Below, piece by piece: positions 2,403 through 64,000 of a stretch of DNA of 64,000 nucleotides (position 1 is its first letter; every line of letters starts with the position of its first letter). The translations under genes were made by a program, and so were the position numbers. This DNA comes from Shewanella sp. UCD-KL12 (GTDB lineage: Bacteria > Pseudomonadota > Gammaproteobacteria > Enterobacterales > Shewanellaceae). Under the pieces are notes generated by a model, which searched no databases, was not told the origin of the DNA, and worked only from the letters and a program-made list of their open reading frames with translations. The stretch covers positions 1,247,765-1,311,764 of the forward strand of contig NZ_MPHJ01000001.1 of assembly GCF_001957125.1 (NCBI RefSeq), written 5' to 3'.

Positions 2403-2556
2403 TTGGTCAGGCTAAGTATCTGTGAAAGTGATACAGCCTGGACCAAAGGTAGGTACTGCTTGAGTTGCTGAGTAGCCAGCTTAATGGTGCCGGTCCTACT
2501 TGTCGTTAGCGTAACCCGCTTCAGACATTCGATACAGATGAGAGGAGGTGTATCGA
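2403..2556. other. Structured intergenic stretch with two hairpins
   Basis: Two inverted repeats lie between small minus-strand genes. The first pairs 2403-2420 with 2430-2446 (TTGGTC, AGGCT and GTATC arms, 16 base pairs with one 2-nt and one 1-nt bulge, 9-nt loop). The second pairs 2529-2536 (TCGATACA) with 2549-2556, enclosing a purine-rich 12-nt loop. Neither is followed by a U-tract, so terminators are unlikely. They could be a leader RNA or an intergenic repeat; no family is recognised. Confidence 0.4.
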
Positions 2557-2598
2557 TTAGCTTAGGTGTAACTATAATTCAGTACTTTGATAACGCTT

Positions 2599-2772
2599 TT
2601 ATTTATTGCCTGAAAGTAGCCAGTTCATAAATTTAAGTGCTTCAGTACGTTTTGAGAACGTTTGTTTATTTTTTCCATGGCTATCGGTAAATGCGATAGA
2701 AGATTTATTTACTGAAATAGAATCTACTGGAAAATTAACTGTGATCTCATGACCGTTTACATTGTACGACAT
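2599..2772 (-). CDS. Small protein of 57 residues, function unknown
   Basis: A complete short frame begins at ATG 2770-2772, with AAGGAG 8 bases upstream, and ends at TAA 2599-2601. The product starts MSYNVNGHEITVNFPVDSIS and contains KNKQTFSKRTEALKFMNWLL near its end. It is a mixed hydrophilic/hydrophobic sequence with no signal peptide, membrane segment or cysteines. The strong ribosome binding site and balanced amino-acid composition argue that it is real. I do not recognise a family. It lies alone between the Cys-rich gene and the MscS gene, on the strand opposite to the latter. Confidence 0.6.
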   Translation of the reverse strand: MSYNVNGHEITVNFPVDSISVNKSSIAFTDSHGKNKQTFSKRTEALKFMNWLLSGNK

Positions 2773-3251
2773 AGGTCATACTCCTTATTGATTGCTGCTA
2801 AAAATAACTAGCAGGCATTTGTATTTAATAATAAAAATCCTTAGCGAATTGCAAAAGATGAGCATTAAGTGTGTCTTGAGACTACCCAGCTTCAACATCT
2901 TAATCAAGTTATCTAGATTCAAACTGTGTGACTAATTGTAACAAGATGAATATAGCTATCTTCAATCCTGTTCAGTTCAACATAGTGATATGACAGTCTG
3001 ATGACGAAAGATGATGTATCGGAGCTTTTTATATTTTGCGAGGCGGAGACGATAATAGGTCTAGCGAAAGGAAAATATAGCAGTTATCTCAAATCTGTTG
3101 GTGATTATATAGACACAAGCATACTTGTCAATATACGAATGCACAAATTTGGTCATTTTCGTTGGAGTGAGGAAATTGTGTTGTGAAACTGTTGTTTATG
3201 GAAATTGGTGGTAGAATTTGTCTGTGTTTTGTTAATTAACGGTCGTAGTGA
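2773..3251. other. Intergenic stretch without a convincing gene
   Basis: About 480 bases separate the 57-residue gene from the MscS gene. A 61-codon frame at 3001-3186 is open but lacks a ribosome binding site and any recognisable feature, so it is not called. The segment presumably holds the divergent promoters of the neighbours, but no clear -35/-10 pair or repeat is seen. Confidence 0.5.
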
Positions 3252-4865
3252 ATGAGATTGAGTTGCTGGAGCATTGTCCTTTTATCGTTTTCTTTATTAT
3301 TTTGCTCGCACGGTTTTGCTGCGGGAACGCCAAGTATGGCGAGTGTGCTTAAAGGTGCTTCAACTGAAGAGGAGAAACCTGCTGAACTTTCTGTTCATAA
3401 GAAGTATGAATATAAAGATAAGTTAAAGCGTGATACGCCAAGAGGAACCTTAGAAGGTTTTACTCAAGCATCCTATGAACAAGACTATGAGCTAGCTGCA
3501 GAATTTCTTGATCTTAGATACCTCCCTGAGGGGATGACAAAGGCGCAAGGTGCTGAATATGCATCAAAGCTTCAGGCGATTATTGACAGAAATATCTGGG
3601 TCGATCTTGACGAAATTAATGACTCCCCCCGTGGTCTAGATAACGATATGTTGCCTGCATACCGTGATGCTTTTGGCCGTATTAAAGTTGAAAGTGGCGA
3701 GGTTTCCCTCCTTTTGCAGCGAGTTCCTGGCGAGCAAGGCTCTATCTGGAAAATCTCGAATGCCACGGTTGCAAAAATCCCGACCTTATATGAACAGCTT
3801 GGTTACGGGCCTGTCGTTGAATGGTTTGTCGATAATATTCCCGAAGGCCGTTTGTTTAAGGTTAATCTGTGGGAGCTAACCTTATTACTGGTTTATTTAG
3901 CCGCCGCATTTTTAATTGTGGTCCCAATAACTTGGGTCACAAAGCTCATCATATTGAAGAGCCAGTATTCCCTTAAACAAGAACTATCATACATAGTGGC
4001 AGGCCCATTACGCTTCTTTTTAGCGGTTGTCTTAGATAGAGCGTGGATAGCGAACAGTAGCATCTCTGCCATGGCATTAGAGATGATAAACACTGGCTTT
4101 TTGATGTTTATCGCGATCATATGGCTGGTGTGGTCCTCTTTAGGCATTTTACAAGCTGGGCTAAAAAGGCGATGGCTTGATAAAGATAATCAACAAGGGG
4201 CTTCTCTGCTTGGCCCGCTAACTAACTTTGTCAGGGTCATTTTTGTCGCACTTGCTACCTTGGTCTGGCTTGAACATCTTGGGTTCAGTGCCAGCGCGAT
4301 TTTAGCTGGTATGGGGATAGGTGGCGTCGCTATCGCACTGGCATCTAAGCAATCTATTGAGAACTTTATTGGCACAATAACCTTATACTCAGCAGCACCG
4401 ATTAGGGTTGGACACCTGTGCCGCTTCGGGGCTATTAACGGTACTGTCGAGGAGATAGGTTTAAGGTGCACGCAAATAAGAACGCTAGATAGAACGCTCA
4501 TCCATGTGCCTAATGCTAAGTTGGCGGAGATGGAGATAGAAAATATCTCAGAGCGCGAAAAGATAAGGTTTAAAGCTGATATTAGACTCGAATATGGCAC
4601 TTCATCAGAGCAACTTAAGGCGATAATTTCCGATATTACTTCAATGTTAGAACAACATGATAATGTTGATGAAAGCCCATTGAGAGTGACATTCCAAGGC
4701 TTTGGTTTGCATGGATTACAGGTTAATGTTTTCGCCTATGTCGGCACAACAAGTTACCCAACTTATCAATTGGTCGCTGAAGAGCTTCATTTAGGCATTA
4801 TGGATATAGTGGTTAATCACGGCTCAAGGATTATTCCAGTAGCGCCTATAGCGGCAAAAATCTAG
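3252..4865 (+). CDS. MscS-family mechanosensitive ion channel
   Basis: A 537-residue membrane protein. An N-terminal signal sequence ends near residue 24 (SHGFAAG) and is followed by a periplasmic domain of about 180 residues. Four hydrophobic helices then lead to the MscS signature: a Gly/Ala-rich pore helix (AILAGMGIGGVAIALASKQS, around residues 350-370), the beta domain (GTVEEIGLRCTQIRTLDRTL) and HVPNAKLAEMEIENIS. Such channels open on membrane tension and release solutes during hypo-osmotic shock. The extra periplasmic N-terminal domain distinguishes it from the 286-residue E. coli MscS and resembles the larger MscK/YbdG-like variants. The gene stands alone. Confidence 0.9.
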   Translation: MRLSCWSIVLLSFSLLFCSHGFAAGTPSMASVLKGASTEEEKPAELSVHKKYEYKDKLKRDTPRGTLEGFTQASYEQDYELAAEFLDLRYLPEGMTKAQGAEYASKLQAIIDRNIWVDLDEINDSPRGLDNDMLPAYRDAFGRIKVESGEVSLLLQRVPGEQGSIWKISNATVAKIPTLYEQLGYGPVVEWFVDNIPEGRLFKVNLWELTLLLVYLAAAFLIVVPITWVTKLIILKSQYSLKQELSYIVAGPLRFFLAVVLDRAWIANSSISAMALEMINTGFLMFIAIIWLVWSSLGILQAGLKRRWLDKDNQQGASLLGPLTNFVRVIFVALATLVWLEHLGFSASAILAGMGIGGVAIALASKQSIENFIGTITLYSAAPIRVGHLCRFGAINGTVEEIGLRCTQIRTLDRTLIHVPNAKLAEMEIENISEREKIRFKADIRLEYGTSSEQLKAIISDITSMLEQHDNVDESPLRVTFQGFGLHGLQVNVFAYVGTTSYPTYQLVAEELHLGIMDIVVNHGSRIIPVAPIAAKI

Positions 4866-49878: not shown

Positions 49879-50096
49879 ATTTTTCCATTATTTAATTTGA
49901 ACTTAATCCAAGAGCATAAACAGGAGTGCTATCCGATGTTCTTGTCATCCATTTATTGTTGCCGAGTATATCATTTGAAATGTTTGAGACCAGTTTCATA
50001 TAATTTGGTTCATGTTCTACACTCATTATTGGGGATTTATTAATGCCTAACCTGGTTAAAGGAGTTAATCGGGTCACTTTAGACGAAGGAATGTAT

Positions 50097-51002
50097 ATGA
50101 ACGTCCTGCCTCATCGATACATCACTATTTTTGTTATTGCTTTAACCTCTTCATTCGCTTTTGCAAACCCTTTAGGGCGTTGTGAGGTAAGCGGGTGTGA
50201 TCAAGAGAGTGATAATACACAAACACAACTTACCTTTGAACATATTCAGTTGGCTACACATGGAGACCTACAAGGCGTTATCAATGACTACTTAGTGAGT
50301 GAGAAGCTTGATGGGGTTAGGGGGTTTTGGGATGGAAAGCAGATGTTTTCACGTTCAGGAAGAGCTATTGCGATACCTGATTGGTTTACTAAAGACTTTC
50401 CTACATATCCGCTAGATGGTGAGCTTTGGATGGGAAGGGGAGCATTTGAACAAATATCTGCTTTAGCAAGGCGCAAGGTACCTATTGATGAGCAGTGGCG
50501 CAAAGTTCAATTTATGGTGTTCGATCTTCCGGCCAGTTCAGAGAGTTTCAAACAGCGATATGCTCAAGCACACCGTGAGTTAACCAATATTTCCCCCTTT
50601 CTTGAAGTCATTAAACAAAGGAGATTCCAAACACTGGCGAATTTAGAGTTTTGGTTTCAACAAATACTTGATGAAGGCGGGGAAGGGTTGATGCTGCATA
50701 GGCAAACAGCCATTTATAGCGCAGGTCGTAGCAGCGATCTCATAAAGCTTAAACCTTATTATGATGCGGAAGCGACTGTCATTGCATATCAAGCGGGGAA
50801 GGGAAAACTCGAAGGCATGATGGGGGCATTATTGGTAGAAAATGAACAGGGAGTGAAGTTTAAAGTTGGAACAGGCTTTACGATTAAGGAAAGACTTAGT
50901 CCACCACCACTAGGTGCCAGAATAACGTATCAATATTCAGGTTTAACACAAAAAGGAACGCCTAGGTTTGCTCGGTTTCTTAGGGAAAGGTTAGAGCAAT
51001 AA
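50097..51002 (+). CDS. Periplasmic ATP-dependent DNA ligase (Lig E type)
   Basis: A 301-residue minimal ATP-dependent DNA ligase with a signal peptide (cleavage near AFANPL, about residue 24), the Lig E class found in several proteobacteria. Motif I is SEKLDGVRGFW with the adenylated lysine K70; RSGRAI, DGELWMGRG, and DEGGEGLMLHR then LIKLKPYYDAEATVI (motifs III, IV and V) are intact. Ends with an OB-fold (FKVGTGFTIKERLSPPP). A role in joining extracellular or incoming DNA has been proposed for the class. ATG at 50097 has AAGGA 6 bases upstream and gives an intact signal peptide. Confidence 0.92.
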   Translation: MNVLPHRYITIFVIALTSSFAFANPLGRCEVSGCDQESDNTQTQLTFEHIQLATHGDLQGVINDYLVSEKLDGVRGFWDGKQMFSRSGRAIAIPDWFTKDFPTYPLDGELWMGRGAFEQISALARRKVPIDEQWRKVQFMVFDLPASSESFKQRYAQAHRELTNISPFLEVIKQRRFQTLANLEFWFQQILDEGGEGLMLHRQTAIYSAGRSSDLIKLKPYYDAEATVIAYQAGKGKLEGMMGALLVENEQGVKFKVGTGFTIKERLSPPPLGARITYQYSGLTQKGTPRFARFLRERLEQ

Positions 51003-51356
51003 CGCTACCTAACTAGATGTACGAGTTAGATTATAAATGAAAATAACGGGTTATCGACTTGTGTTGACGATTAAGATAGATGTTGGATTTTTACTTAATT
51101 TTACAATAATAACTCTTAGTTGATTAATGAGGTTTATAGTTAATTTGCAAATAATAAATAGTTGGTTTATGAATTATATTAGGTTGTAAGTTGGGGTTTA
51201 GCAGTCAGCGACGTATTTCCATGTTATTTATAGTCAACTGACTAAGTTGAAACCTCAAATAAAGCTGATGTGTAAATATTAATTTTAATGACGGCAGTTC
51301 TAAACTAGCTTTTGTAAGTGTAAGGTAAGCTGGTTAGTTATCTAGTAATGAACGTT
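51003..51356. other. Intergenic region at the left edge of the AT-rich block
   Basis: About 350 bases between the convergent ligase and the helix-turn-helix gene. No gene, clear terminator or direct repeat marking an insertion boundary is visible. One TTAGCA occurs at 51198. Confidence 0.4.
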
Positions 51357-52307
51357 CTAATCTGTTTTTATGTGATCGGATAAATTACAACGATTGCAGA
51401 GTTTATTAGAGCAACTCTGTAAGCAATGAAGTTGTTTTTGAGCTGAAGGAAATAATATTGAATTGCACAACGCCTTCATTATATCTATTTTAAATAGATA
51501 AACACCTAACTTTGAATCAGGGTTTTTAGGTGGAAAATACATAGTTTCTTCAATGCCCAACAAGCTTCTTGTTATATCGAAAAGAGGGTATCCGGCAACA
51601 AAAAGATAAAGGTTCTTTTTGTTGATTTTTGATATGATATAATAACAAATGGAATAATCTAATAATTCCATGTAATGTTTGGAGTTATTAAAATACCCAA
51701 CGTTGATCAATGAGCTTGTAGATAGGTCGGATTTATCAATAAACTCAAATAAAGATAACCCTTCTAACTGACTTAGATCTTCTATTCCGCTGTAGTGGCT
51801 TAAAATTTCCCCCTTTGAGTTCTCTAATGTTATACTCGTATAATCTACACTGTTACCGAGCTTATGGAGTTCATCGAAGTAGTCACTTAATGAGCAAATG
51901 TTTTTATGGAAATCAGAAAAATATTTATTATATTCTTCAAAGTTTTGATGTCTTATTTTACAAATAGATTGTTTAGGTTGTTGTTTATAAGATAAAGTCA
52001 ATGATGAAAAATCTAAAATTGTAATAAGGTTTTTGAATGTTTTTGATATTTTTTCTGAAACCTTTAAAGTTGAACTTTCCACTCTGCAAATGATGTCTAC
52101 AATATCAACACCCATATACTGAGCAATTAGCAGTTGTTTATGTAATGGTGGTACAGTTTTTCCAGTGGTCCAGCGACTGACAGTTATACTATCAAGTCCT
52201 TTAAACTCTTCATAATTTGAACTCTGAAGAAGAAATATAAATTCACTTCTTGAAAGTTCTTTCTCTTTTAACCATGTAATCAATTCATTTTTAAATATGT
52301 ACTTCAT
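51357..52307 (-). CDS. Helix-turn-helix regulator-like protein, copy A
   Basis: A 316-residue protein. An N-terminal XRE/Cro-like helix-turn-helix covers about residues 16-72: LSRSEFIFLLQSSNYEEF, LDSITVSRWTTGKTVPP. The rest is a long, Lys/Ser-rich domain without a recognised family, ending in a cysteine-rich tail (CLQSCSNKLCNRCNLSDH) that could bind metal. The N-terminus is clearly related to that of the protein at 62947-63831 at the other end of the adhesion block. It is transcribed away from the pilus genes. I infer a regulator of that block. Confidence 0.65.
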   Translation of the reverse strand: MKYIFKNELITWLKEKELSRSEFIFLLQSSNYEEFKGLDSITVSRWTTGKTVPPLHKQLLIAQYMGVDIVDIICRVESSTLKVSEKISKTFKNLITILDFSSLTLSYKQQPKQSICKIRHQNFEEYNKYFSDFHKNICSLSDYFDELHKLGNSVDYTSITLENSKGEILSHYSGIEDLSQLEGLSLFEFIDKSDLSTSSLINVGYFNNSKHYMELLDYSICYYIISKINKKNLYLFVAGYPLFDITRSLLGIEETMYFPPKNPDSKLGVYLFKIDIMKALCNSILFPSAQKQLHCLQSCSNKLCNRCNLSDHIKTD

Positions 52308-52845
52308 AGGTTATTACCTTGTAGAGATAAAATAATTCCAATAACGAGCTAATGAACTGGGTAATGATTTAATATGTGCCAAAATGATAGGTGCATAAGA
52401 TTAAGCATTAGCAATGTCTCTAGATTATGTGTTGAAGTGCTATTTTACTAATGCGTTACAAATATATCGTTAGCACGTGCGAAATTTGTTTGTGCAGCAT
52501 GCTAACGACATGTTGCTCAGAGCTATTTACAATCCATTACTTAAGTTACAACTACTTTGCTAACAGTGCAGTCGAATACGCGTGAGTATTATCAAGAAAA
52601 GAAAGCAAGTCCCTAACTATTTTTATTAGTTGTACTGAGCTCTTTACTTGCACTAGTGTCAAAGATTCATTATCAAAAAATGCTTACTTGGCACTGCTTA
52701 CTTAGCTTTTAAGTGAAGTTTAGTAGATAAAAATTTGTGAAGTAACAATTAGTTAATTCCAGTGTTATCTATGTAGGTCGTGTTATGAACTCATAGTAAG
52801 TTAATTATTATGTTGATAGTAAAGCTATTTAGAAGAGAAATAACT
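52308..52845. promoter_or_regulatory. Regulatory intergenic region with repeated TTAGCA/TGCTAA sites
   Basis: Contains GCATTAGCAATG (52405), CGTTAGCACG (52468), TGCTAACG (52500) and TGCTAA (52558). The second and third form an inverted pair (8-bp arms, 32 bp centre to centre). The same motifs recur before the pilin gene (53767 and 53798). The 11-mer TTACAACTACT at 52546 also recurs at 53707. This is the expected place for the promoters of the HTH and EAL genes. No other gene is seen. Confidence 0.5.
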
Positions 52846-53589
52846 ATGAATGATTGCTATTTATTAAATTCAAACCGTTATGAGACATCTAGAATGTTGA
52901 GCTCTTTATTACTTTTTAAATGTCAAAATATATTCGACCCCTTAATAGAGAGTTTTAAAAATAATCGTCATTGTATAATTGGCGCTGAATTGCTTGTTGA
53001 TTTCCAGCATCTTAAGTCATTAGGTGTGCCTTTGGAACAGTCAAATGAACTGATCTCTTCAGGTGAGGCAGCACATAGCTCACTTGATTATGCTTCTACA
53101 ATATTGGGTAAGGAAGTGGTTTTTGTTAATGTTGAAAGGTGCAATCTTTGTGATATGAAAATTTTGAAACGCATAATTACGCTAAGTAATCAGTTATTGT
53201 TGATTGGGATTGAATTAGTTATTGAAATAACTGAAAGAAATTTTTGTGGTATATGTGTTAGAGTGGTTGAGGGGTTGACTTATTTAAAGGAAAATAAAGT
53301 AAAGCTAGCAGCTGATGATTTTGATTATATTGGGTATAAAAATGATAGCAAAGAGAAAGAGCTTGTTTTGTATTATGATTATATAAAATTAGAAATGCCA
53401 GTTAATGAATTTGAAAGAATGGTTTTTAACGATTTTATTGATTGTTACTCAAGTGTAAAGAGAATAATAGTTGAAAGAGTAGAAACAACAAGGCAAATGA
53501 AAAGTTTACCTGTTGATAAATTATGGGGAGTTCAGGGTTTTCTTTTTTGTAAAGGTTATATGGTTCCAAGAATTTCTTTTTCCATTTAA
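52846..53589 (+). CDS. Divergent EAL-domain (c-di-GMP phosphodiesterase-like) protein
   Basis: A 247-residue protein consisting of an EAL domain alone. The ELL of GAELLV (E48) replaces EAL. Key residues still seen: N of VFVNVER, E of IEITERN, DD of AADDFDYIGY, K of YIKLEM, E of ERVET and Q of VQGF. The usual DFGTGYSS loop 6 is changed to DFDYIGYKND, KxD to KLE, and AEGVE to VERVE. Ligand binding is therefore likely but catalysis uncertain. The start at 52846 has AAGAGA upstream. It lies just ahead of the pilus operon and probably links c-di-GMP to its expression. Confidence 0.8.
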   Translation: MNDCYLLNSNRYETSRMLSSLLLFKCQNIFDPLIESFKNNRHCIIGAELLVDFQHLKSLGVPLEQSNELISSGEAAHSSLDYASTILGKEVVFVNVERCNLCDMKILKRIITLSNQLLLIGIELVIEITERNFCGICVRVVEGLTYLKENKVKLAADDFDYIGYKNDSKEKELVLYYDYIKLEMPVNEFERMVFNDFIDCYSSVKRIIVERVETTRQMKSLPVDKLWGVQGFLFCKGYMVPRISFSI

Positions 53590-53898
53590 TACATTATCCA
53601 CTTAAAGATATGTTTGTCATATATTTATCAATTATTTTATTTTAAAAAAATATTTTTACATTTTTCTGGTGGAGTAAAGCCGTAAAGTGATTGTTCTAAC
53701 ATGAAATTACAACTACTAATGTGAGTTAAATGTTATCTTAGGTAATCATGTGTTTATTTTAATCTAGCATTAGCATTGTGAGTAATATTAAATACTTCGT
53801 GCTAACGCAATTGTTGTTGATATTAAATAAAATGTTTTTGGCGTAAATAATCTCGCATTGTTATATGTGTTAAATGTTAATAACTAGGAGTTTTAAAT
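53590..53898. promoter_or_regulatory. Promoter region of the pilus operon
   Basis: About 310 AT-rich bases without a gene. It holds GCATTAGCATTG (53767-53778) and CGTGCTAACG (53798-53807), the latter the exact reverse complement of 52468-52477, and TTACAACTACT (53707). AGGAG precedes the pilin ATG. Confidence 0.5.
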
Positions 53899-54480
53899 AT
53901 GAAAGTTAACAAATTAGTAGCATTTTTGGGGATGGTAGTTGTAAGTCAAGGTGTTTATGCAGCAGCTGGTGATACAGCAACGGCAACAGCTAATTGGCAA
54001 GGAAAGGTACCTGGAGTTATTCAGTCTGATGCTTTTGTAATCACAGGCGAAGGTGGGGATTTAGTCACTCCTATAGGTCAATTAATGCGTACAACAGACG
54101 GAGCTATTGTTGCGCCAAGTATACAGCTAGAAGCGAGGGATAATACAGGAACTGTCGCTGCTCCGATTGTTGGAGAATTAGTGTCTACTACAACACGTGA
54201 CGATGGTGCAGGTAGTACGGAGGCGCGAGCTATAACATGGGCTGTATCAGATGTTGCTTTTTTCGCTAATGGTACTCCTGTGGCTGGGCTTGATTGGTCA
54301 GTGATGCATGATGGGATTGTACTTGCAACTTCTACTGCAAGTGGTGTAACTCAAATTAGCTCGCATGCTGGAGATATTCTAAAGCTAAATGCACTATCTA
54401 CTTCAGCATCTGCTGATATTGATATGTATACGGGCAAAGATGCAGCACTATCTGTTACCGTTATTGCGTCTGAAATTTAA
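53899..54480 (+). CDS. Major pilin-like subunit of an alternative chaperone-usher pilus
   Basis: A 193-residue exported protein with a signal peptide cleaved near VYAAAG (residue 22). The mature part begins DTATATANWQGKVPG, resembling the donor-strand N-terminus of alpha-type pilins such as EcpA (which has ATATW-like sequence), followed by a low-charge beta-rich domain without cysteines that ends KDAALSVTVIASEI. The family assignment rests on this and on position as first gene of a cluster encoding usher and chaperone. AGGAG precedes ATG by 8 bases. A distinct 3' gap of 79 bases before the next gene would suit higher expression of this subunit. Confidence 0.7.
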   Translation: MKVNKLVAFLGMVVVSQGVYAAAGDTATATANWQGKVPGVIQSDAFVITGEGGDLVTPIGQLMRTTDGAIVAPSIQLEARDNTGTVAAPIVGELVSTTTRDDGAGSTEARAITWAVSDVAFFANGTPVAGLDWSVMHDGIVLATSTASGVTQISSHAGDILKLNALSTSASADIDMYTGKDAALSVTVIASEI

Positions 54481-54559
54481 TTGTATTGTTCTTAATTATA
54501 TTGTCCGATTAAATTGATAGTGCTTGTCTTGAAATAACGATGTCCCAAAATGGTAAGTC

Positions 54560-55105
54560 ATGATGAATATTTCTTTCAAAACGACATTAATTATGAGTTC
54601 GATATTTTCTCTTAGTGTTACTGCAAAGCATTTTACTCATGACTTTCCTGTATCAACAACTATCGATAGATCAAATATGCTATCAGAAACTGTTAACTTA
54701 ACATTAAATCCAAGTGCGATAACGTTAATGTATGATGGTGAAATAAAAACGTTCGCAAATACTAAGGTAGATTTGAATATTGAGTCAACGGTTTATTCAT
54801 TAGGCTCGAAAGTTGATGTTGATAGGTATGAATTGTTTCTTTTAGGAAACAGTTCATCATGCTATTCATCTACGATAAAAAATATAACTCAAAAAGTTGT
54901 AGGTTATGAAGATATCGTAAAAATATATCTAGACGATGATGTATCAGAAATGAATGTAAACAAAGCATATAGTATTACCGATAGTTCGTTGTTTGTAGAG
55001 GGTTCAAACAAAAAGCATAAGTTGGTACTTAGGTTTTCAACGCTAGGAAATGATGTTAGATATTGCGACGGTTCATTTGTAATTGGCTTTAGGTATGATC
55101 TATGA
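54560..55105 (+). CDS. Second (minor) pilin-like subunit
   Basis: A 181-residue exported protein with a signal peptide ending near SVTAKHF (about residue 22). It has a beta-rich domain with two cysteines (SSSCYSS and VRYCDGSF) that could form a disulfide, and ends VIGFRYDL, like the closing strand of a pilin-type Ig fold. It lacks the chaperone features of EcpB, so a minor subunit is preferred. Its final ATGA overlaps the usher start, which fixes it in the operon. No close family is recognised. Confidence 0.6.
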   Translation: MMNISFKTTLIMSSIFSLSVTAKHFTHDFPVSTTIDRSNMLSETVNLTLNPSAITLMYDGEIKTFANTKVDLNIESTVYSLGSKVDVDRYELFLLGNSSSCYSSTIKNITQKVVGYEDIVKIYLDDDVSEMNVNKAYSITDSSLFVEGSNKKHKLVLRFSTLGNDVRYCDGSFVIGFRYDL

Positions 55106-57885
55106 CATTTATATTTAGATTGTTTTTATATTTGTTTTTTGCAATCACCTCATTTATGTCAATGGCTAGTAAAACGATAGTCCCAGAAGGGTTTGAGGAT
55201 TTTTACAAGTTTAAAGAATCAAAGGTTAAAATAAAAAGTGCAAATGGAAAGTATTATGATGCAATTTTGGATGTATCATATAATAAGATAAAACTTAATA
55301 CCAATGAACATGAACAAAATTTGATTAGAGTCAAAGACATATTAGCAGCTAACAATATCAAGGGAAAATATATTTCATTAATGGTTAATGACCTAACTAC
55401 AGGGGTAGTTGTTGATAATGCTCGTTGTATTGAAAAACTGATAACAAACTGTGTCATTACGCCCAATGATTGGGGGTATTCCTTTGTATTTGATTATGAT
55501 AGTAAAACTGTTCTGATATTTATTAGTGATAAAATATTAAATGTTATTAATCCCACTAATCAGTCTGTTTATCAAACTGCTAAAAGTGATAGCCCTGCAC
55601 TAATAAATCATTTTTCTGTGGATATAAATAAATATGTGCAATCAGATGTTGATTTTAATATAAACGATGAAGTTCTTTGGGGCTTGAAGTATGGCCATTT
55701 TGTCGGTGACTTTCAATATCAAAGTGCTAGTAGTAGTTTTGATGTTTACAAATTGGCATATCAATTAGATTTCGACAAGTATCGCTTTAGATTGGGTCAG
55801 TTCCTGGGGGGGCAAGTTATAAATAGCACTGATTTTTTAAAAAATAGTTCTGTACTAAACGGTGTAACTGAAAGTGTAATTGAGTTTGGAACTTCGAACC
55901 GTTTACTACTTGGCAAGAAAAATAAAAACAAACAATTATACTATTTTTCTCCTGCAGTTGGCAGACTAAAGATTAAAGAACTCGGTAGTGATCGTATTAT
56001 CCTTAGTCAGAACACAAATCAAGGTCAGCAATTTATTTCGTACTCTGAATTGCCATATGGTGTTTATGAGGTAGTACTTGAAGTAATGAACGGTGATAAT
56101 GTTCTGTTGAGCCAAATTCATACAATATATAATAAGCCTTCTGATAGCTTAACTGTTGGCGATTATGATTTCTTACTTACATTAGGAAGTTTGAATGGTC
56201 ATGGTATTTTAAGTGATAGTGATAGTGATAGTGATAGTGATAGTGATGAGTTATTATTTGCTCGTGGATTAGCCAGTTTAAAAGTTACTCAAGGGGCGTT
56301 ACTGGCGCTTGGAATTACAGGAAGTGAATCTGGTGCGATTGTGTCGTCAGGGCTTTCATGGGATATGCAAGACATTGCTAAATTTGAAACATCATTTAAT
56401 TATTCTGACTCAGGTGAGTTTCTGTTTGATACGAGTTTTAATTTTGGCAACTTAACAACTTCCTATCTGAATTATTCAGGGTCAGAAAATACTAACTTAG
56501 CGTCTACCTTATATGGATATGGAGATTATCAAAGGCTTTATGTAAGTAGTTCATTTGATTTTTTTGAATTAGGACACGCAAGATTAACTAGTTCTTATAA
56601 TTTTAGTGAGAGTATTTTAACTCCATATAACTATGAAAATTATAATGTTAGTTTTGGTATTAGTAGACAAATAAATAACTATCTTATGTTAGATCTTAAT
56701 GTAGGTTATGATACTGACTCTATAAGTGCTAACTTTGATGCGGATAAAATAAATGCAATGTTATCGTTATCTATAAGTTTGTCACCTAAACATTCTTTGT
56801 CATATAGAACCAGTGTTCATGCATATGGTGGTGATGTGTCATCATTTCGAAATACATTATCAGCCTCATCTTTGATCGAAATGAAAAATTACCATGACTA
56901 TGGTGAAATTAGTCACATATACTCAAATTCACTTGATGGAACAACAGAATTCAATGCTACATATTCTGGTAACCTTTCCAATAAGTGGTTGAATTCAAAT
57001 GGCTACGTAACAGGGAATTCAAATGGAGATAAAGGGGCTACTATTGGGTTTAATTCATCACAAATTTTGTATGATAACTCTTTCTTTTTTACGTCCAGTA
57101 AAAGTGAAAGTTATGGTCTAATTGATTTGAAAGGAGCTGGTTCTAATGTGTCTGAACCATCATTGAAGGCATACTTATCCATTAAGGACGAGCAAGGTCT
57201 AGTTAATCGGGAATCACTATATTCAGCTAAAAGCATATTGCCTTTGAAGGAGTTTAAAAGGTATGAGCTTGGTCTAAACACAGAAGTAGGTGATTTGCTA
57301 AATAGTGGCCGGGAGTTTTCATTTGGGTATTCTTATCCATCAAGCGTGATAGAGTTTTCTACTGAAGTTGGTAAAACAAGAAAGATAATATCAGGGTTCA
57401 AGACTGTTTTCGATGAGCCAATCACTAACTTAATCTGTGAAGGCTCAGGATGTATAGACGTTTTTCCAATAACGGAAGGTGTTTTTGACGTTACTGTATT
57501 AGATGGAAAGGGTTTTCTGTTAACGCATGATGATTTGTATTGTGATATAGATTTACAAGATGGGATAACAAATTATGGGACTAACTATTGTTTTCCAAAT
57601 GTTTTATCTGGGGAGTCAAAATTAATAACAAATGTTTCCGGTAATAAAATTAATTTAAGATATTTGGGTGAATATCTTAAGGATGAAAATACTATGCAGT
57701 TTATCGATAGATTAGAAGCCAGCGAGGTAAAGCTATACACTCTTGAAAGGAAATTGACGTTTGCAATATATGTTACATACTCTAATGGTTCTTTAATCCC
57801 TGAAGAGTTGTTTAACTATATTAAAGAATTATCTGAGTACGCTCTAAATAATAACCAAGTGAATAATAGTGGAGTAGGTAAATGA
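55102..57885 (+). CDS. TcfC/CooC-type outer membrane usher
   Basis: A 927-residue outer membrane protein of the alternative (CS1/alpha) usher family that exports and assembles pilin subunits. Signal peptide ends near SMASKTI. The N-terminal region begins IVPEGFEDFYKFKES, as in CooC/TcfC ushers. A core of strands follows, with FSPAVGRLKIKE from about residue 283 and the paired SYSELPYGVYEVVLEV segment typical of TcfC. The last 170 residues hold the C-terminal plug/CTD with cysteines (CEGSGC, CDIDL, NYCFPN). A run of six Ser-Asp pairs at residues 371-382 is unusual. Overlaps both neighbours by 4 bases. Confidence 0.85.
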   Translation: MTFIFRLFLYLFFAITSFMSMASKTIVPEGFEDFYKFKESKVKIKSANGKYYDAILDVSYNKIKLNTNEHEQNLIRVKDILAANNIKGKYISLMVNDLTTGVVVDNARCIEKLITNCVITPNDWGYSFVFDYDSKTVLIFISDKILNVINPTNQSVYQTAKSDSPALINHFSVDINKYVQSDVDFNINDEVLWGLKYGHFVGDFQYQSASSSFDVYKLAYQLDFDKYRFRLGQFLGGQVINSTDFLKNSSVLNGVTESVIEFGTSNRLLLGKKNKNKQLYYFSPAVGRLKIKELGSDRIILSQNTNQGQQFISYSELPYGVYEVVLEVMNGDNVLLSQIHTIYNKPSDSLTVGDYDFLLTLGSLNGHGILSDSDSDSDSDSDELLFARGLASLKVTQGALLALGITGSESGAIVSSGLSWDMQDIAKFETSFNYSDSGEFLFDTSFNFGNLTTSYLNYSGSENTNLASTLYGYGDYQRLYVSSSFDFFELGHARLTSSYNFSESILTPYNYENYNVSFGISRQINNYLMLDLNVGYDTDSISANFDADKINAMLSLSISLSPKHSLSYRTSVHAYGGDVSSFRNTLSASSLIEMKNYHDYGEISHIYSNSLDGTTEFNATYSGNLSNKWLNSNGYVTGNSNGDKGATIGFNSSQILYDNSFFFTSSKSESYGLIDLKGAGSNVSEPSLKAYLSIKDEQGLVNRESLYSAKSILPLKEFKRYELGLNTEVGDLLNSGREFSFGYSYPSSVIEFSTEVGKTRKIISGFKTVFDEPITNLICEGSGCIDVFPITEGVFDVTVLDGKGFLLTHDDLYCDIDLQDGITNYGTNYCFPNVLSGESKLITNVSGNKINLRYLGEYLKDENTMQFIDRLEASEVKLYTLERKLTFAIYVTYSNGSLIPEELFNYIKELSEYALNNNQVNNSGVGK
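56212..56247 (+). repeat. Six tandem copies of the hexamer AGTGAT inside the usher gene
   Basis: A perfect simple-sequence repeat encoding six Ser-Asp pairs. The unit is a multiple of three, so copy-number change would lengthen or shorten an acidic stretch without a frameshift. Confidence 0.9.
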
Positions 57886-58610
57886 GGCTTTTTAAATGCA
57901 TTTATATTTTTGTTTTTAGTACTTTGTGTTCTCCGGTATCTAATGCAATTTACCTGGATAAAATGTTGACCATTGCAGATGAAAATAAAAATGGCTCATT
58001 TATCATCACTAACGACAAAGAAACTACATATTTTATAGAAACTAAAATTAAAGAAATTATAACTCAGGAAGATGGGTCTATAGTAAGGAAGGAATACACT
58101 AAAGATAATGTTGATAGCTGGGGAATAGCAGTCAGTAACCCTCGGTTTATTATTGAACCTGGTCGAACCAAAAATCTTGGCGTTAGAGCAATTTGCGGAG
58201 AATTATGTGATGTGAATAAGGATAAAACTTATGAATTATTATTAATACCTAGGCCATATAATTCTATGGATGAGGATATCCAACAGTCAATTAGCATTTT
58301 TGTTGGTTACGCACCAATTTTTATCATTCCGTCAGAAAATCCTGAAATTGCATTTGATATTAGCGTGGATCATGATGTTATTACTATACACAATAATAGT
58401 AATACCTTGATAAGGGTGTTGATTGACAATTGTACCGGAGTTAAGAATGGTTCTTGTAGCACTTATTATACACTAATTGAAGGTAGGGAGAAAAAATATT
58501 CACTTCCTCAGAAGCTTATTGGAGAAAACCTAAATATATCTATTTTGAATCATGACGAAAGTTATAATCAAAAAATTATCATTCCATCTAACGGCCGTTT
58601 CTCTAGGTAG
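57882..58610 (+). CDS. CS1-type periplasmic pilus chaperone
   Basis: A 242-residue periplasmic chaperone with a signal peptide ending near SNAIYL. The N-terminal Ig domain carries WGIAVSNPRFIIEPGRTKNL, matching the conserved VTPxxxxLxPGxxxxI strand of alpha-type chaperones such as CfaA and CooB. The second domain has IIPSENPEIAFDI and ITIHNNSNTLIRVLIDNC, then INISILNHDE-like sequence at the end (LNISILNHDE). Two Cys pairs (CGELCD; DNC...GSC) may form disulfides. It starts inside the usher stop (ATGA) and is followed after 7 bases by the adhesin-like gene. Confidence 0.82.
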   Translation: MRLFKCIYIFVFSTLCSPVSNAIYLDKMLTIADENKNGSFIITNDKETTYFIETKIKEIITQEDGSIVRKEYTKDNVDSWGIAVSNPRFIIEPGRTKNLGVRAICGELCDVNKDKTYELLLIPRPYNSMDEDIQQSISIFVGYAPIFIIPSENPEIAFDISVDHDVITIHNNSNTLIRVLIDNCTGVKNGSCSTYYTLIEGREKKYSLPQKLIGENLNISILNHDESYNQKIIIPSNGRFSR

Positions 58611-58617
58611 GTTGCAA

Positions 58618-59670
58618 ATGAAAAGTTTTCTTGCAATTATAGTTTATATATTATGCCTTCATCCAGTTTATGCTATTACGGTTAATATCAATATTAATGG
58701 AGATAATGTTAAGTATGAGAATGCAAGGCTTGATAAAGGTAATTACATAAGTACTGCTTCGGAGTTTGTTTCAAATTTGGAGCCTACTTCATCTTGGCTT
58801 CCTGCATCTAGTAGTAAAGAGCTTAATTTCAACCTATTTGGTCCAGATAAAAAAAATGCAAGCCTTCATGTTCAATTAACTGGGTTAGAGTTTGATTGGG
58901 CTGGTAGTAGTTCAAATTCTGATTCAATAAATAACACAGTTATGGGACTAGAGTCTGGAATTTGCAATACATATATATTGGCTGGGACTAAAGTTCAGTT
59001 AACTAGTGATTCGTCTTCTTGTATTAGTAACAGATTCATCAACTCTGCAAGCGAGTTGAACCCATTTTATTTTGTGAGACCAATATTTAAAGTTCACAGC
59101 TTCAGCACATTAACTGGCTTACCAGAGGGGGTTTACGTTGGAAGCGAAATAATAAAGTATAGATACTATTATTATAATAAACATAATGTTTTTACATACA
59201 GAGAGCTAAGTTTCGATTTGACTTTTCAGATAAGTTATACTCCTTCTGTATTTTCTTCATTAGAGGTAGTGGCAGAAAACGGAGGGATAATAGAGCCTAA
59301 ATATGAAACTGATAAAGTTAAAGGGGAAACTAAATATAATGTAGTAGCATCTGGATTCTTTGATACTGGTATTAAAATGAAGTTTGATACAGGGGGTAAC
59401 TACTCGCTCATTCATGAGTCAGATTCAACGTCAATAATCCCTTATTATATTCATTGTTCAACTTGTGATAATAAAGTGATCGTAGGAGATGATGGCAAAG
59501 TAGTGAGTGCCGTTTTAAGTAGTTCAGGAATAGTGAATGTACCTGTGGGCGGTAACCATAATACTATTAGTTTTGATTTGGTTGTTGGGTATAGAAATAG
59601 AGAGTTTAACGAAGTAATTACTGGGCGTTATTCGGCTTCATTTAATGTTATATTTGGTTTGGATTTTTAA
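58618..59670 (+). CDS. Tip adhesin-like pilus subunit
   Basis: A 350-residue exported protein, the size of CfaE/CooD tip adhesins (about 360). The signal peptide ends near VYAITV. The N-terminal half is a beta-rich lectin-like region with two cysteines (SGICNTY and SSCISN), and the C-terminal third looks like a pilin domain ending GRYSASFNVIFGLDF, with CSTC mid-way. Position after the chaperone, as last gene of the overlapping set, fits the tip subunit. ATG at 58618 is chosen for the signal peptide; a frame extending back into the chaperone gene has none. No ligand can be predicted. Confidence 0.7.
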   Translation: MKSFLAIIVYILCLHPVYAITVNININGDNVKYENARLDKGNYISTASEFVSNLEPTSSWLPASSSKELNFNLFGPDKKNASLHVQLTGLEFDWAGSSSNSDSINNTVMGLESGICNTYILAGTKVQLTSDSSSCISNRFINSASELNPFYFVRPIFKVHSFSTLTGLPEGVYVGSEIIKYRYYYYNKHNVFTYRELSFDLTFQISYTPSVFSSLEVVAENGGIIEPKYETDKVKGETKYNVVASGFFDTGIKMKFDTGGNYSLIHESDSTSIIPYYIHCSTCDNKVIVGDDGKVVSAVLSSSGIVNVPVGGNHNTISFDLVVGYRNREFNEVITGRYSASFNVIFGLDF

Positions 59671-59755
59671 TATGGTTAAGTTTATATTTTATGATATTTT
59701 AGTTGGGCTGGTTTTAAGTGGGTAAATATATTTCAAACAGATGTTTAATCTTAAG

Positions 59756-59785
59756 CATAAACATAAACATAAACTTAAACTTAGA
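59756..59785 (+). repeat. Hexanucleotide repeat in the promoter region of the lipoprotein gene
   Basis: Three perfect copies of CATAAA followed by CTTAAA and CTTAGA, at positions 38 to 67 before the GTG start. Length changes here would alter promoter spacing rather than a reading frame. Confidence 0.75.
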
Positions 59786-59822
59786 TTCAAGTGTTTTTTA
59801 CTTTGATAGTTAAGGAGTATCC

Positions 59823-62744
59823 GTGGGCCTATTATCATGTACTTTTTTTCAACGCAAATGTATAATTATTTCATTACTATTTTCTTTATTAGGGTGTGGC
59901 GGTGAAAGTTCAACAACTAGTAATGAAACTGAAGTAATCTCACCATCTGAACTAGATGCTATTGTGATTAGTCAAGATAGTATTGATTTAGGCTCATTAT
60001 ATCAAAATAATATTGTGGATCTTAGTAGTCGTAATATTATTTCTACAGGTGAAGCTTTAGCAATTTCAGATTTGATAAATATATCAAGAAACTCACAATG
60101 TGAGCCGCTTCTCATTTCAAACATGAATTTCACATTGGATAAGTTTGAAGCTCCAACTCTTTGCAGTTATAAGTATTCTTTGAAAAGTTTAAGTTCCGGA
60201 ATAGTATATGATAATAATAATATGGTAGCCCAAGTTATCATTAAGGATGCTTCACCTGTTGTACAAAATAGTCGAGCGAGTGTCCGTATGCTTCCGTCAA
60301 CAACACTTCCTCCAATTCAGTTGTCTATATCTGCACCTGGAGAAGTAGTTAATATCGATTTAACATCTAGATTGGCAACCCAATTCCCTAAAGATGATGC
60401 TAATAAAAGCTATCAGTTATCTAATAATGTACTTGTGCTTGGGAAAGGCACGGCGGTTGTTAAATCTGATGATTTAAACAAAAGCGTAATTAGCTATAGT
60501 AGTGATGTTAGTGACGTTGGTGGTATTACAAGATTACTGTATTCACTATCAGATGATTTTGATGGAGATGGTTATGGTGATTTTCAAATTGGTTCTATTG
60601 ATATTAGTGTCCATGGCGGTGGTAGTAATATGAGTCCAGTTGCGAATAATTTTCTGCGGGACAATGGAGATAATGAATTAATTATTAATAAAAAATATAC
60701 GATTAATGTTGCAAGCCAAACCTCTGATGACTGTATTTATGAGCGAAAACCTACTGAGTCAGTAGGAAGTTGTATTTTTGATTCAGACGGAGATAAACTT
60801 CAATTAGTTGGGGTGTATTCATATGATGCACAGGTTGTACCAACTAGCTTAACGAATATAGTATCAACGGAGTTTGACATTACATTTGAACGTACTGGCA
60901 TTCATGATGTCACTTACGAAATAAGTGACCATAACGGCGGTTTTGCAAGCGGCATTGTACGTTTTTATGTGAAAGAAAATCTTGCACCAGTACCAGATAA
61001 TAACCCTTATATCATAATAATGGAGGAATCTAATAGTTGGCTAACTAAGACTGTTAACAGTTTTGCAAGTGATCCAGATGGAGATATTATAACTATAAAA
61101 TCATTAGAAGAGTCTGTGGATGAAATTACCGTTGAAATCGATGACATATACCCTGATAAAGGTGACGCAAGAGTAAGGATAAAAACGGGAGTAAATTCAG
61201 AAGGTGTACATGAATTTTCAACAGTTCTTACTGATGGTATAAATGATGTTTTACAAAAATGGGTTATAATTGTCAACCCCGCTAATCACCTATCATTAGC
61301 ATCAATTGATAAAAGGACATTTTCTACCGATACTAATATGCCAATTGAAATTGATATCACATCGATAATTAGAAATATCAGACCTGGTAAGGTGGTGTCA
61401 GTAAAAAAAGTATCAGGTGGCCAGTATGGTGAAGTTGCAATAAGCTCAACTGATGAAAGTAAAGTTATTTACAAGCCTCATAAAAATATATTAGGTATTG
61501 ATGATTTTATCTTTGAAGTTGAAACGACTTCGGGAGCCTATATTGCCGGTGATGTAATTATAAATATCGGCAACCCTCCTGAATTACTTATATCTGATGT
61601 TACGGCAACTGAAGGGGTAAATGATCTTATTAGTGCTTCAGTAATATGTGATAACTGTGATGTGAGTAAATATGAATATAACTGGGTTATTGATGATCAA
61701 GTAGTATCGACTGATAAATCATTCACAATTACTCCAGAACAAAGGATTTATAATGTTACATTATTAGTTGTCGGCACTGATGTTTTTGGACAAAAGGCTC
61801 ATAATGTTTCGATTTATAATTTTTTTGAGATTGTAACTGGTTCGTATAACTTTCCTGCTACGGATTGTCAGGAAATATATACTACTTATAATTCTCCTTT
61901 TGGGTTGACGGTTGATGATGGTGAATATTGGTTGAGAAGTGCCGATGATTCATATACTTATAAAACTCAATGCGACATGGTATCTCAAGCAGAAGCTGAT
62001 GAATTGGATAAAAGTGTTGGTGGTTATACTTTAATATGGTCCTATTCGGAGAAGACCAACTTAACACGTTTTGGTGGTTCTACTGATAAGTTCTCCCAAC
62101 GGAGTAAAGGTGTTGAGTTTAATGGTCGTTCATTTGTCGATGGTAGAGGGTTAGTAACCACTGAGAGTGGCATAGTTGACTATAATAATTTTCGTGTGAC
62201 CAATGATGAGTTGAATAAAAAGTTTGGCATTTCTTATTCACGAGTAACATACACATCAGATATATCTATAGATTCTATTAATAGAGATGTGGATCATACT
62301 GTTCAAGATTGGTACATGCAAACCACAGAGCCAGTAAATTTTTATACAGGCTCTGTAGATTTTAGCTCCGCTGGTTTCGAATCTGGCATTGCTGGGCGAT
62401 TAGCAGGGGTAAAAATCGACGGTATCTATAAATCCTCACGTGTTGTAGAGCTAAGAAATAATGTTGGTGAGGTTTTAGGTGATATGACTATGTATGGAGG
62501 AGCTTACGGTTTTCACTACTCTGTAGATGAAGTGTACAACGGTCAGTATCTTAATAATTTATGGGGCTTTTGGGGAGAAAATGATCATGATTTGGACTTG
62601 TTTGGTCTATGTACTAACCCTAAAGAGATAACCCTCGGAGGGGTTAAGAGTTTAGGGTGTAATGGTGATACTGCAGGTGCCAAAACTTACCATGAGAGTA
62701 TAAATGGTGGTGAAGGATATGTTATTCAGTGGTGGGCGCTATAA
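59823..62744 (+). CDS. Large surface lipoprotein with cadherin-like segments and a C-terminal fibrinogen-like domain
   Basis: A 973-residue lipoprotein: LLGC places the lipidated Cys at residue 25. The middle (about 150-600) has Ig/cadherin-like repeats with calcium-type Asp clusters (DDFDGDGYGDFQIG, DSDGDKLQLVGVY, SDPDGDIITI) and tandem strands. The C-terminal third begins DCQEIYTTYNSPFGLTVDDG, then EYWLRSADDSYTYKTQCDM and GGYTLIWSYSEKTN, and closes with GEGYVIQWWAL; this is the layout of bacterial fibrinogen-like domains, which bind glycans or glycoproteins in eukaryotes. GTG start with AAGGAG 5 bases upstream. Last gene of the block, separately expressed from the pilus operon, perhaps anchored to the outer membrane. 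Confidence 0.8.
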   Translation: MGLLSCTFFQRKCIIISLLFSLLGCGGESSTTSNETEVISPSELDAIVISQDSIDLGSLYQNNIVDLSSRNIISTGEALAISDLINISRNSQCEPLLISNMNFTLDKFEAPTLCSYKYSLKSLSSGIVYDNNNMVAQVIIKDASPVVQNSRASVRMLPSTTLPPIQLSISAPGEVVNIDLTSRLATQFPKDDANKSYQLSNNVLVLGKGTAVVKSDDLNKSVISYSSDVSDVGGITRLLYSLSDDFDGDGYGDFQIGSIDISVHGGGSNMSPVANNFLRDNGDNELIINKKYTINVASQTSDDCIYERKPTESVGSCIFDSDGDKLQLVGVYSYDAQVVPTSLTNIVSTEFDITFERTGIHDVTYEISDHNGGFASGIVRFYVKENLAPVPDNNPYIIIMEESNSWLTKTVNSFASDPDGDIITIKSLEESVDEITVEIDDIYPDKGDARVRIKTGVNSEGVHEFSTVLTDGINDVLQKWVIIVNPANHLSLASIDKRTFSTDTNMPIEIDITSIIRNIRPGKVVSVKKVSGGQYGEVAISSTDESKVIYKPHKNILGIDDFIFEVETTSGAYIAGDVIINIGNPPELLISDVTATEGVNDLISASVICDNCDVSKYEYNWVIDDQVVSTDKSFTITPEQRIYNVTLLVVGTDVFGQKAHNVSIYNFFEIVTGSYNFPATDCQEIYTTYNSPFGLTVDDGEYWLRSADDSYTYKTQCDMVSQAEADELDKSVGGYTLIWSYSEKTNLTRFGGSTDKFSQRSKGVEFNGRSFVDGRGLVTTESGIVDYNNFRVTNDELNKKFGISYSRVTYTSDISIDSINRDVDHTVQDWYMQTTEPVNFYTGSVDFSSAGFESGIAGRLAGVKIDGIYKSSRVVELRNNVGEVLGDMTMYGGAYGFHYSVDEVYNGQYLNNLWGFWGENDHDLDLFGLCTNPKEITLGGVKSLGCNGDTAGAKTYHESINGGEGYVIQWWAL

Positions 62745-62786
62745 GATACTTCTTTGTTCTCGCTTGGTTTAGAGTGTATTAATATA

Positions 62787-62806
62787 GGGCCTTGTCAGGC
62801 AGGCCC
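62787..62806 (+). terminator. Terminator after the lipoprotein gene
   Basis: GGGCCT pairs with AGGCCC across an 8-nt loop, followed by a short TTTA tail, 43 bases past the stop. Confidence 0.6.
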
Positions 62807-62946
62807 TTTATTGAGATATTGTTTTAACTATTAAAGGGTTTTAACTTAACGCTTGGGTATTGAATAAAATATAGCTATTGCTGTCTTCAAAGTAGTTAAA
62901 GGTTTGTACATTTATGATTCTACTGTAAAATCATTTTTTATTAACA

Positions 62947-63831
62947 TTATATATAGGATTCATAAACTGGAGATTGTCTTATTAGTGATGTCATAGGTAT
63001 TAAAAAACCTAGCCAAGCATAAGTTTTGGTGAAATGAGTGAGCCCATGTGATGATAATGGTCCGAATGTGGATACTGTACCACCTAATGACTCTGCGTAA
63101 ACTTTTAGATCTGTATTATATAAGCGCAGATATACATAACGAGCTTTGAATTTCTTTTTGTCGCAATATTCTAAAACGCCTAAGATATTTTGCAAAAAAA
63201 TTACATCTGATGAGGAGTGGCTGCAAGCAAGCACTGCAACATAATCACTACCTTTAATCGATGTATTGCTAGGTGAAAACTGATTACCAATATTTTTTAT
63301 GATACTTTCAAGCTTATTAATACATGTAAAGTATATTATTTGGTGCCCAACTAAATGTTTTTTATCGAGATAAAACTCTGTTATTGAATAGCAACATATT
63401 CCAACTTCTTCAATAATTTTATTGTACTCATTATAACTGTTTCCCCACGCATTGTGGTATGCCTCAGATATCAAAGGGTTTACATGTGATTTTTCGTATG
63501 TAACTTTTTTACTTAAATGTCTGTGAGACAAGTAAAAATTATCAAGAGTCCTATCTCCCACACTACCAAATCGATTATGGATAACTTTGGTTTCATTCTC
63601 ATTTTTTAATGTAAATGTTCTAGCTAATTTTTTTGCCAATTGGATGGTAGATAATTGAAAAATTGCAGAGATTTGTTTTATTTCTGAAGGGCGCGTATGG
63701 CCATTTTCCCAGCGCGAATACGTTACTTTATCCAACTTTTCGAACTCGTCTAGACTTCTTAAAGACTCTATAGCGTCTGATTGACTCAAAGATTGTTTAA
63801 CACGGATCTCTTTTAAAAGAATATCGAACAT
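62947..63831 (-). CDS. Helix-turn-helix regulator-like protein, copy B
   Basis: A 294-residue protein whose N-terminus (about residues 10-66: LSQSDAIESLRSLDEFEKL, DKVTYSRWENGHTRPSEIKQ) is an XRE/Cro-type helix-turn-helix clearly related to that of the 51357-52307 protein. The remaining 220 residues differ from it and include SEAYHNAWGNSYNEYNKIIE and a hydrophobic beta-rich end; an acyltransferase-like (GNAT) fold is conceivable but unproven. It reads toward the adhesion block. Its 5' flank (63832-64000) holds no recognised sites. Confidence 0.65.
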   Translation of the reverse strand: MFDILLKEIRVKQSLSQSDAIESLRSLDEFEKLDKVTYSRWENGHTRPSEIKQISAIFQLSTIQLAKKLARTFTLKNENETKVIHNRFGSVGDRTLDNFYLSHRHLSKKVTYEKSHVNPLISEAYHNAWGNSYNEYNKIIEEVGICCYSITEFYLDKKHLVGHQIIYFTCINKLESIIKNIGNQFSPSNTSIKGSDYVAVLACSHSSSDVIFLQNILGVLEYCDKKKFKARYVYLRLYNTDLKVYAESLGGTVSTFGPLSSHGLTHFTKTYAWLGFLIPMTSLIRQSPVYESYI

Positions 63832-64000
63832 ATATACCTCTTTGTTAAACTACCTTGTTGTGGAGGACATTCTATTACTTGATAATGTGAGCATGTTTAA
63901 ACAAATCTTGTATGTGTTGGTCGGTACATAACTTTATTAGCCAGCCATGTAGAGACTTTAGTAAGGCTAGCTCATTTGTTTAAAAAGCTTACAACACTCT

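Follow-up and report, generated by a model that had tools for sequence, protein, structure and literature searches.

We report that a 64,000-nucleotide stretch of the Shewanella sp. UCD-KL12 genome (contig NZ_MPHJ01000001.1; the whole stretch is hereafter the window) carries, with a probability that we put at roughly 0.8 on sequence grounds, all the genes, intact, of an alternative (alpha) chaperone-usher pilus that belongs to a separate aquatic branch of these systems. The pilus unit is larger than the five genes given in a preliminary description of the locus, since a sixth gene, g6, which encodes a modular lipoprotein, belongs to it; the strict co-inheritance of g6 with this type of usher is the strongest new point of the analysis. 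The genes of the unit are the following:

53899 to 54480, + strand: g1, pilin-like subunit of 193 residues, proposed major (rod) pilin (family, position)
54560 to 55105, + strand: g2, CFA/I-type pilin of 181 residues with Cys101 and Cys169, proposed minor subunit (predicted fold)
55102 to 57885, + strand: usher of TcfC type, 927 residues (PF16967, tree)
57882 to 58610, + strand: periplasmic chaperone of EcpB/CS1 type, 242 residues (family profile)
58618 to 59670, + strand: candidate tip adhesin, 350 residues (position, length)
59823 to 62744, + strand: g6, lipoprotein of 973 residues with an immunoglobulin (Ig)/cadherin-like stalk and a C-terminal tip at residues ~660-973 (lipobox, domains, linkage)

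The reading frames bear out the order and places first proposed for the five core genes, all of which are open and on the same strand. The close linkage claimed for them holds for three junctions, with ATGA overlaps between g2 and usher and between usher and chaperone and a 7-nucleotide gap from chaperone to adhesin gene, but the 79 nucleotides between g1 and g2 had gone unmentioned. The usher strings VPEGFEDFY and SPAVGRLKI and the chaperone strand VSNPRFIIEPGRTKNL are all present in the encoded proteins, and the signal peptides look convincing by eye. For the adhesin, the ATG at 58618 is preceded by AGGTAGG, and a longer listed start at 58552 lacks a clear Shine-Dalgarno sequence. Calling this a complete five-gene operon was accurate as to the intact core but missed the linked g6, the regulators and a barrel gene found in most relatives.

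The alpha, TcfC-type assignment of the usher was upheld by a Pfam scan, in which PF16967 scored 43.2 bits (cut-off 29.4); PF00577, which we take to be the classical usher family, is not among its four matches up to E 1. Within a first sample of 99 genomes (60 from the genus of the window, its own included) usher matches were found in 8, again counting its own, and the match in G002 is to a CS1-like usher only. The nearest relatives are those of G051 (48% identity) and Vibrio hepatarius (47%). A profile search matched 41 of 394 genomes of the order with clearly bimodal scores: 17 places in 14 genomes reached at least 468 bits and the remainder at most 55, a copy number that is a lower bound given that at most two candidates were scored per genome. 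No full-length relative was found in 368 other genomes of a class-wide sample, ten of which gave weak matches, and 47 plasmid records, 45 from Vibrio and 2 from Photobacterium, carry homologous ushers. Some of these plasmids come from diseased shrimp, and among the matches listed the annotation of the ushers goes no further than TcfC or CS1 domain protein.

In a tree of 50 ushers (48 distinct; arbitrary root, long branches flagged, the split ushers of loci L017 and L027 omitted), a branch supported at 100/100 separates the 27 ushers of the aquatic type from EcpC and CS1-like ushers. Those two groups are the references, and CfaC, CooC, Salmonella TcfC and other clades lie outside the set; for the ushers sampled, the lineage apart from the enteric ones that was first proposed is supported. 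Within the usher gene, six perfect AGTGAT units (56212-56247) code for a stretch of Ser-Asp that follows the TcfC domain; this stretch is absent from the nearest relative, and whole-unit length changes would keep the reading frame.

The chaperone family profile, compared by hhalign with nine yardsticks, matched the CS1-like chaperone of G002 with 98% probability, EcpB with 94% and EcpE with 91%, and the remaining six with less than 1%. Among its 29 members, PapD_N was detected in five and EcpB_C in three (E up to 0.1). In PDB searches a larger profile returned EcpB at the top (E 0.038) and a small one returned PrgB (E 0.019) and FimC (E about 1); single-protein Pfam and NCBIfam scans found little. 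Taken together, the chaperone profile and the PF16967 result indicate assembly machinery of the alpha type.

We compared 29 loci (the window, L015-L027 and L059-L073) whose members span five families plus plasmids. The pair g1-g2 precedes the usher in 28 of them, and chaperone and adhesin follow it in all 29; at L022 the g1-type genes lie elsewhere within the locus. Given this conserved order, pilin-pilin-usher-chaperone-adhesin marks the aquatic branch, of which two further cassettes were found later in G380. Alignments for the family-level Pfam scans exclude near-duplicates and fragments, leaving 31 of 36 longer copies for g1, 28 of 29 for g2 (a 94-residue piece from L027 was dropped), 27 of 29 for the adhesin, 29 of 31 longer copies for the chaperone, 23 of 24 for the barrel protein and 26 of 29 longer copies for g6.

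The structure prediction proposed earlier for g2 did yield a pilin fold, nearest to the CFA/I type (predicted local distance difference test, pLDDT, 79.9 from 25 alignment rows). CFA/I and CS17 pilins take the first eight places in Foldseek, CfaB being best (E 1.4e-6, probability 1.00, template-modelling (TM) scores 0.47/0.56), with FimG, CooA and EcpA behind; VIA gives Z 9.5 both to EcpA (127 residues aligned, 2.6 A) and to the CS17 pilin (120 residues, 2.8 A). The N-terminus before residue 37 falls outside the matched domain. The g2 family profile has a CS1-like pilin at the top of nine yardsticks (hhalign E 9.7e-5, probability 58%), and the pair Cys101 and Cys169 is invariant across 28 rows. 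Single-protein Pfam and NCBIfam scans gave no meaningful match, nor did PDB profile searches, in which the small profile returned nothing and the larger one two chance-level matches. We conclude that g2 is predicted to be a pilin and not a substitute chaperone, and propose it as the minor subunit. Of the two outcomes named beforehand as fatal to the proposal, an usher unmatched by TcfC-family profiles and a g2 product lacking a pilin fold, neither occurred.

For g1 (pLDDT 80.5), the best Foldseek match in the PDB is CfaB (E 4.6e-3, probability 0.99, TM scores 0.37/0.46). No Pfam match was found for the family, nor any Pfam or NCBIfam match for the single protein, and a PDB profile search ranked replication protein A at the top (E 0.004), with a type 1 pilin no better than E 5. 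The family is present at all 29 loci, directly before g2 and usher in 28 and in more than one copy at five; it is mainly because of this position and these extra copies that g1 is proposed as the major (rod) pilin. At L022 five full-length g1-type genes stand in a row (278-4123), oriented against the pilus cassette, which suggests pilin exchange.

The tip role of the 350-residue protein was likewise inferred from position and length, its gene following the chaperone directly at 29/29 loci. Its C-terminal 117 columns align weakly with the g2 profile (E 0.0036, probability 9%), and one of 27 members has a weak CS6-subunit match (E 0.011). Single-protein Pfam and NCBIfam scans returned nothing. 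The adhesin profile did not find the solved CfaE in the PDB; the ferredoxins and ribosomal proteins that it did return were rejected as relatives at E 0.1 or worse.

The sixth gene begins 152 nucleotides past the adhesin gene with a GTG start after AAGGAG, and its product carries the lipobox LLGC. An N-terminal domain of ~370 residues, with Cys93 and Cys114 invariant in 17 and 26 aligned rows, is followed in the 26 relatives by varied modules: Big_9 in 16, Big_1 in 8, InvE_AD in 7 and Lcl_C in 5. The tip in the window (61800-62744) is shared with the two nearest kin, L018 and L019, at 62-63% identity; it has no Pfam or PDB family match and was not found on plasmids, and the L018 tip matches COLFI weakly (E 0.11). 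Its pattern of Cys, GEYWL, CDM and GGYTL looks fibrinogen-like by eye. An imperfect TTAAAC/TAAACA hexamer array (59745-59783) ends 39 nucleotides before the g6 start, and slippage in it could alter g6 expression.

The full-length N-terminal domain of g6 occurs in 14 of the 394 genomes of the order (own included, at most five candidates scored per genome), and these are exactly the genomes with this usher type: 14/14 with the usher versus 0/380 without (Fisher p 5e-26, kinship ignored). A second genome set gave 19/19 versus 0/16, the 16 genomes without the usher showing nothing beyond partial matches of at most 51 bits. The gene lies within the examined stretch at 26 of the 29 loci, and of 25 ushers 24 are accompanied by a copy at a distance of 30 kb or less. 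Conversely, 40 of 42 g6 copies lie near an aquatic-type cassette: 36 have a known usher of this type no more than 30 kb away, and four, in G380, stand beside two cassettes unscored in the first search. The other two are a copy on a 3.5-kb contig and a broken copy in G003, in two pieces counted once, with no cassette in the 19 kb read. Copies were counted at E below 1e-30, which leaves aside a weaker third copy in G306 and partial matches of at most 62 bits, and the profile was built from usher neighbourhoods, so that divergent g6 elsewhere could be missed. This large, hitherto unassigned surface lipoprotein looks like a second adhesin and nearly always travels with the pilus; a companion role for it, judged from linkage, is somewhat more likely than not.

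A further linked family is an outer-membrane barrel, whose gene comes immediately behind that of the adhesin at 22 of 29 loci and at none of six controls; among 23 members OMP_b-brl was detected in 22, LysM in 13 and OmpA in 8. The controls (L028, L074-L078) carry low-scoring ushers, and both g6 and the barrel gene are missing from their examined stretch, which is short (8.8 and 10 kb) for two of them. In L062, L063, L066 and L112 a second chaperone-family gene follows the barrel gene or genes, and in the first three g6 comes next.

Several results weigh against reading the locus as an alpha pilus with a companion lipoprotein. The other usher profile proposed for checking, PF15976 (the CooC C-terminal domain), stayed below its cut-off of 29 at 23.6 bits (E 5.2e-5, positions 2-92 of 93). 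TM scores of the g2 model to pilins are just 0.4-0.6, and at E up to 0.1 none of the 28 g2 members matched what we presume to be the CS1 fimbrial pilin family of Pfam. For g1 the match in fold is weak and does not stand out from unrelated folds, the best VIA neighbour (CS17, Z 6.7, 117 residues aligned, 3.6 A) being tied with an unrelated viral protein, and members of its family match no known pilin or adhesin family in Pfam convincingly. The adhesin family has no CblD match in 27 members and no convincing Pfam family, and its hhalign probability to a CS1-like adhesin is 4%. Finally, no full-length g6 is found up to 30 kb from the L022 cassette (G010), and the window itself is without a barrel gene.

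Some of these observations can be read in another way, namely that this is an ordinary alpha pilus operon in which g6, the regulators and the barrel gene are passengers of an island that play no part in the organelle and stay together because genes for adhesion tend to cluster. This would agree with the distance of g6 from the adhesin gene and its own start and Shine-Dalgarno sequence, with its sometimes upstream position (e.g. L023-L025, L067, L069-L071), with a separation of 24-28 kb at two loci, and with the absence of the barrel gene from 7/29 loci, the window included. The co-occurrence of g6 and usher across genomes of five families and the 40/42 copies near a cassette are, however, stricter than expected from shared island membership alone, and we regard the passenger explanation as a serious contender with clearly less than an even chance.

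For the working of the system we infer the following course. The Sec system would export the subunits; the EcpB/CS1-type chaperone would bind g1, g2 and the adhesin via donor-strand complementation; and the TcfC-type usher would assemble them, the 350-residue protein forming the tip, g1 the rod and g2 a minor component. Lipidated g6 would be exposed at the outer membrane and serve, jointly with the pilus, as a second adhesin of modular build whose Ig-like stalk bears an exchangeable tip. In most relatives the LysM/OmpA barrel, whose gene is absent here, might tie the apparatus or the envelope to peptidoglycan. That g6 and the barrel would work with the pilus is deduced from linkage, and a two-part adhesion machine, in which pilus and dedicated g6 adhesin are joined by a usually present peptidoglycan-anchored barrel bracing usher or lipoprotein, is offered tentatively, at a little short of even odds. 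If true, an envelope anchor and a second adhesin would be regular partners of a chaperone-usher apparatus.

The unit resides in a low-GC (guanine plus cytosine) insert:

51003 to 64000, no strand: low-GC insert, continuing to ~64588, between a ligase gene (50043-51002) and a phosphatase gene

The AT-rich block noted in the preliminary description is real: from ~51.0 to 64.6 kb GC is 28-38% in 500-bp steps, except for 43% at g1, against 35-43% just upstream and 41-46% just downstream. The excess at g1 comes from its amino acids (Ala, Gly, Thr) and not from third codon positions; codon adaptation was rejected as its source, g1 having the lowest third-position GC of nine genes compared. The insert measures 13.6 kb and its flanking genes are core ones, largely collinear in three congeners without it (G003, G010, G011). 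Ligase and phosphatase matches are ~235 nucleotides apart in G010, and the ligase is followed by a phosphatase fragment in G011 and by the gene beyond the phosphatase in G003. The whole block was probably inserted at the ligase/phosphatase site, consistent with related cassettes on plasmids, and would have been acquired by horizontal transfer; no near DNA relative of the block itself was found on plasmids. A tRNA search of the window and an Rfam search of 48-64 kb came back empty, and promoter and terminator scans were not clearly above shuffles.

An acquired island may also be silent or decaying, its genes intact in sequence and not expressed. The absence of the insert from the three congeners would fit this, as would the split ushers of L017 and L027 and the one genome with a broken g6 copy. 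We consider it unlikely here, as all genes in the window are full length and the usher aligns with its 48% identical relative in G051 over residues 6-923 of 927.

Enteric colonisation factors are the best-known alpha pili, and the CFA/I-CS1 systems of the alpha clade have the gene orders cfaABCE and cooBACD. The locus resembles them in its TcfC-type usher, the CfaB-like predicted fold of g2, a chaperone related to the CS1-like one and a single candidate tip adhesin of ~350 residues. It differs in having two pilin genes before the usher and the chaperone after it, an usher in a separate group, a linked lipoprotein and, often, a barrel gene, and in lacking a Pfam CS1 pilin or CblD match. With the Escherichia coli common pilus (ECP; ecpABCDE, read at the K-12 locus) it shares a pilin gene in first position, the profile matches of the chaperone to EcpB and EcpE and the structural match of g2 to EcpA. 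The ECP order pilin-chaperone-usher-adhesin-chaperone is not found at this locus, however: gene 2 is a predicted pilin here versus the chaperone EcpB, there is one chaperone, the adhesin has 350 residues versus 547 in EcpD, and EcpC falls in another group of the tree.

The preliminary description had taken g2 for a gene standing in place of a second chaperone, a suggestion that we abandon, the sole chaperone being encoded after the usher. That g2 might nevertheless be a chaperone-like or anchor protein, as its EcpB-equivalent position and the lack of any sequence match to pilin families in 28 members could suggest, is very improbable given its one immunoglobulin-like domain, its pilin size, the first rank of CFA/I-type and ECP pilins in Foldseek and VIA and the existence of a chaperone family that is a different gene.

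Further counterparts are plasmid-borne proteins of Vibrio and Photobacterium annotated as TcfC or CS1-pili C-terminal: the three plasmids read have the same cassette, and the ushers of the 20 records listed are 24-30% identical to that of the window. Two of the plasmids read are annotated; there the remaining genes of the cassette count as hypothetical and the g6 relatives are labelled Ig-like or DUF823 adhesins, so that the present work gives context to such families. Relatives of g6 share domains with invasin-like adhesins and with bacterial Ig adhesins, which have InvE_AD, Lcl_C and Big_1 tips; unlike these adhesins, g6 is a lipoprotein with its own, unassigned N-terminal domain, and its tip in the window has no Pfam or PDB family.

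A passage in one source confines classical and alternative chaperone-usher pili to beta- and gammaproteobacteria (PMC9452303), and another links the alpha clade with CS1-CFA/I fimbriae (PMC3559732). For Vibrio parahaemolyticus one TcfC domain is counted in a table (PMC8877628), and a V. vulnificus operon is described, in the part of the text consulted, as archaic and not alpha (PMC13348674). Among titles and opening lines of abstracts in the open-licence literature, no paper on the aquatic branch or its lipoprotein was found. With a separate, mobile aquatic branch that has two pilins and a strictly co-inherited lipoprotein, it becomes testable whether alpha pili cooperate with partner adhesins and envelope anchors.

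Three further genes of the insert accompany the unit:

51357 to 52307, - strand: XRE-type regulator with a family-specific C-terminal half (aligned family)
52810 to 53589, + strand: degenerate EAL-like protein (PF00563 20 bits, cut-off 31.3)
62947 to 63831, - strand: another regulator from the XRE-type family above (PF01381 20.8 bits, cut-off 23)

XRE-type regulators with the shared C-terminal half are found at 16 of the 29 loci and may control the block. At a threshold of at least 170 bits, 17 copies were detected across the 35 genomes searched, and every one belongs to a genome that has this usher type; 15 lie within 30 kb of an earlier-found usher and one more, in G380, beside a later-found cassette. 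Weaker matches occur in genomes both with and without the usher. A defence-model scan of five regulators gave one weak, unrelated match. Relatives of the EAL-like gene are present at 7/29 loci, and EAL-domain genes also stand beside three of the six control loci, which are CS1-like (L028, L074, L076); the EAL-like protein is therefore not specific to the aquatic branch. Such genes beside CS1-like loci hint that alpha pili in general are under cyclic di-GMP control.

Six loci were scored for an attenuator hairpin behind g1, with z-scores of -4.9 (L021), -2.5 (L020), -2.1 (L019), -0.8 (L072, terminator-shaped), 0.1 (window) and 1.3 (L024), a mixed outcome on which no general attenuator claim is based. 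Lastly, outside the window and ~1.6 kb past the insert, a 51-nucleotide tandem repeat with 96% likeness between its units lies at L081:17922-18023.

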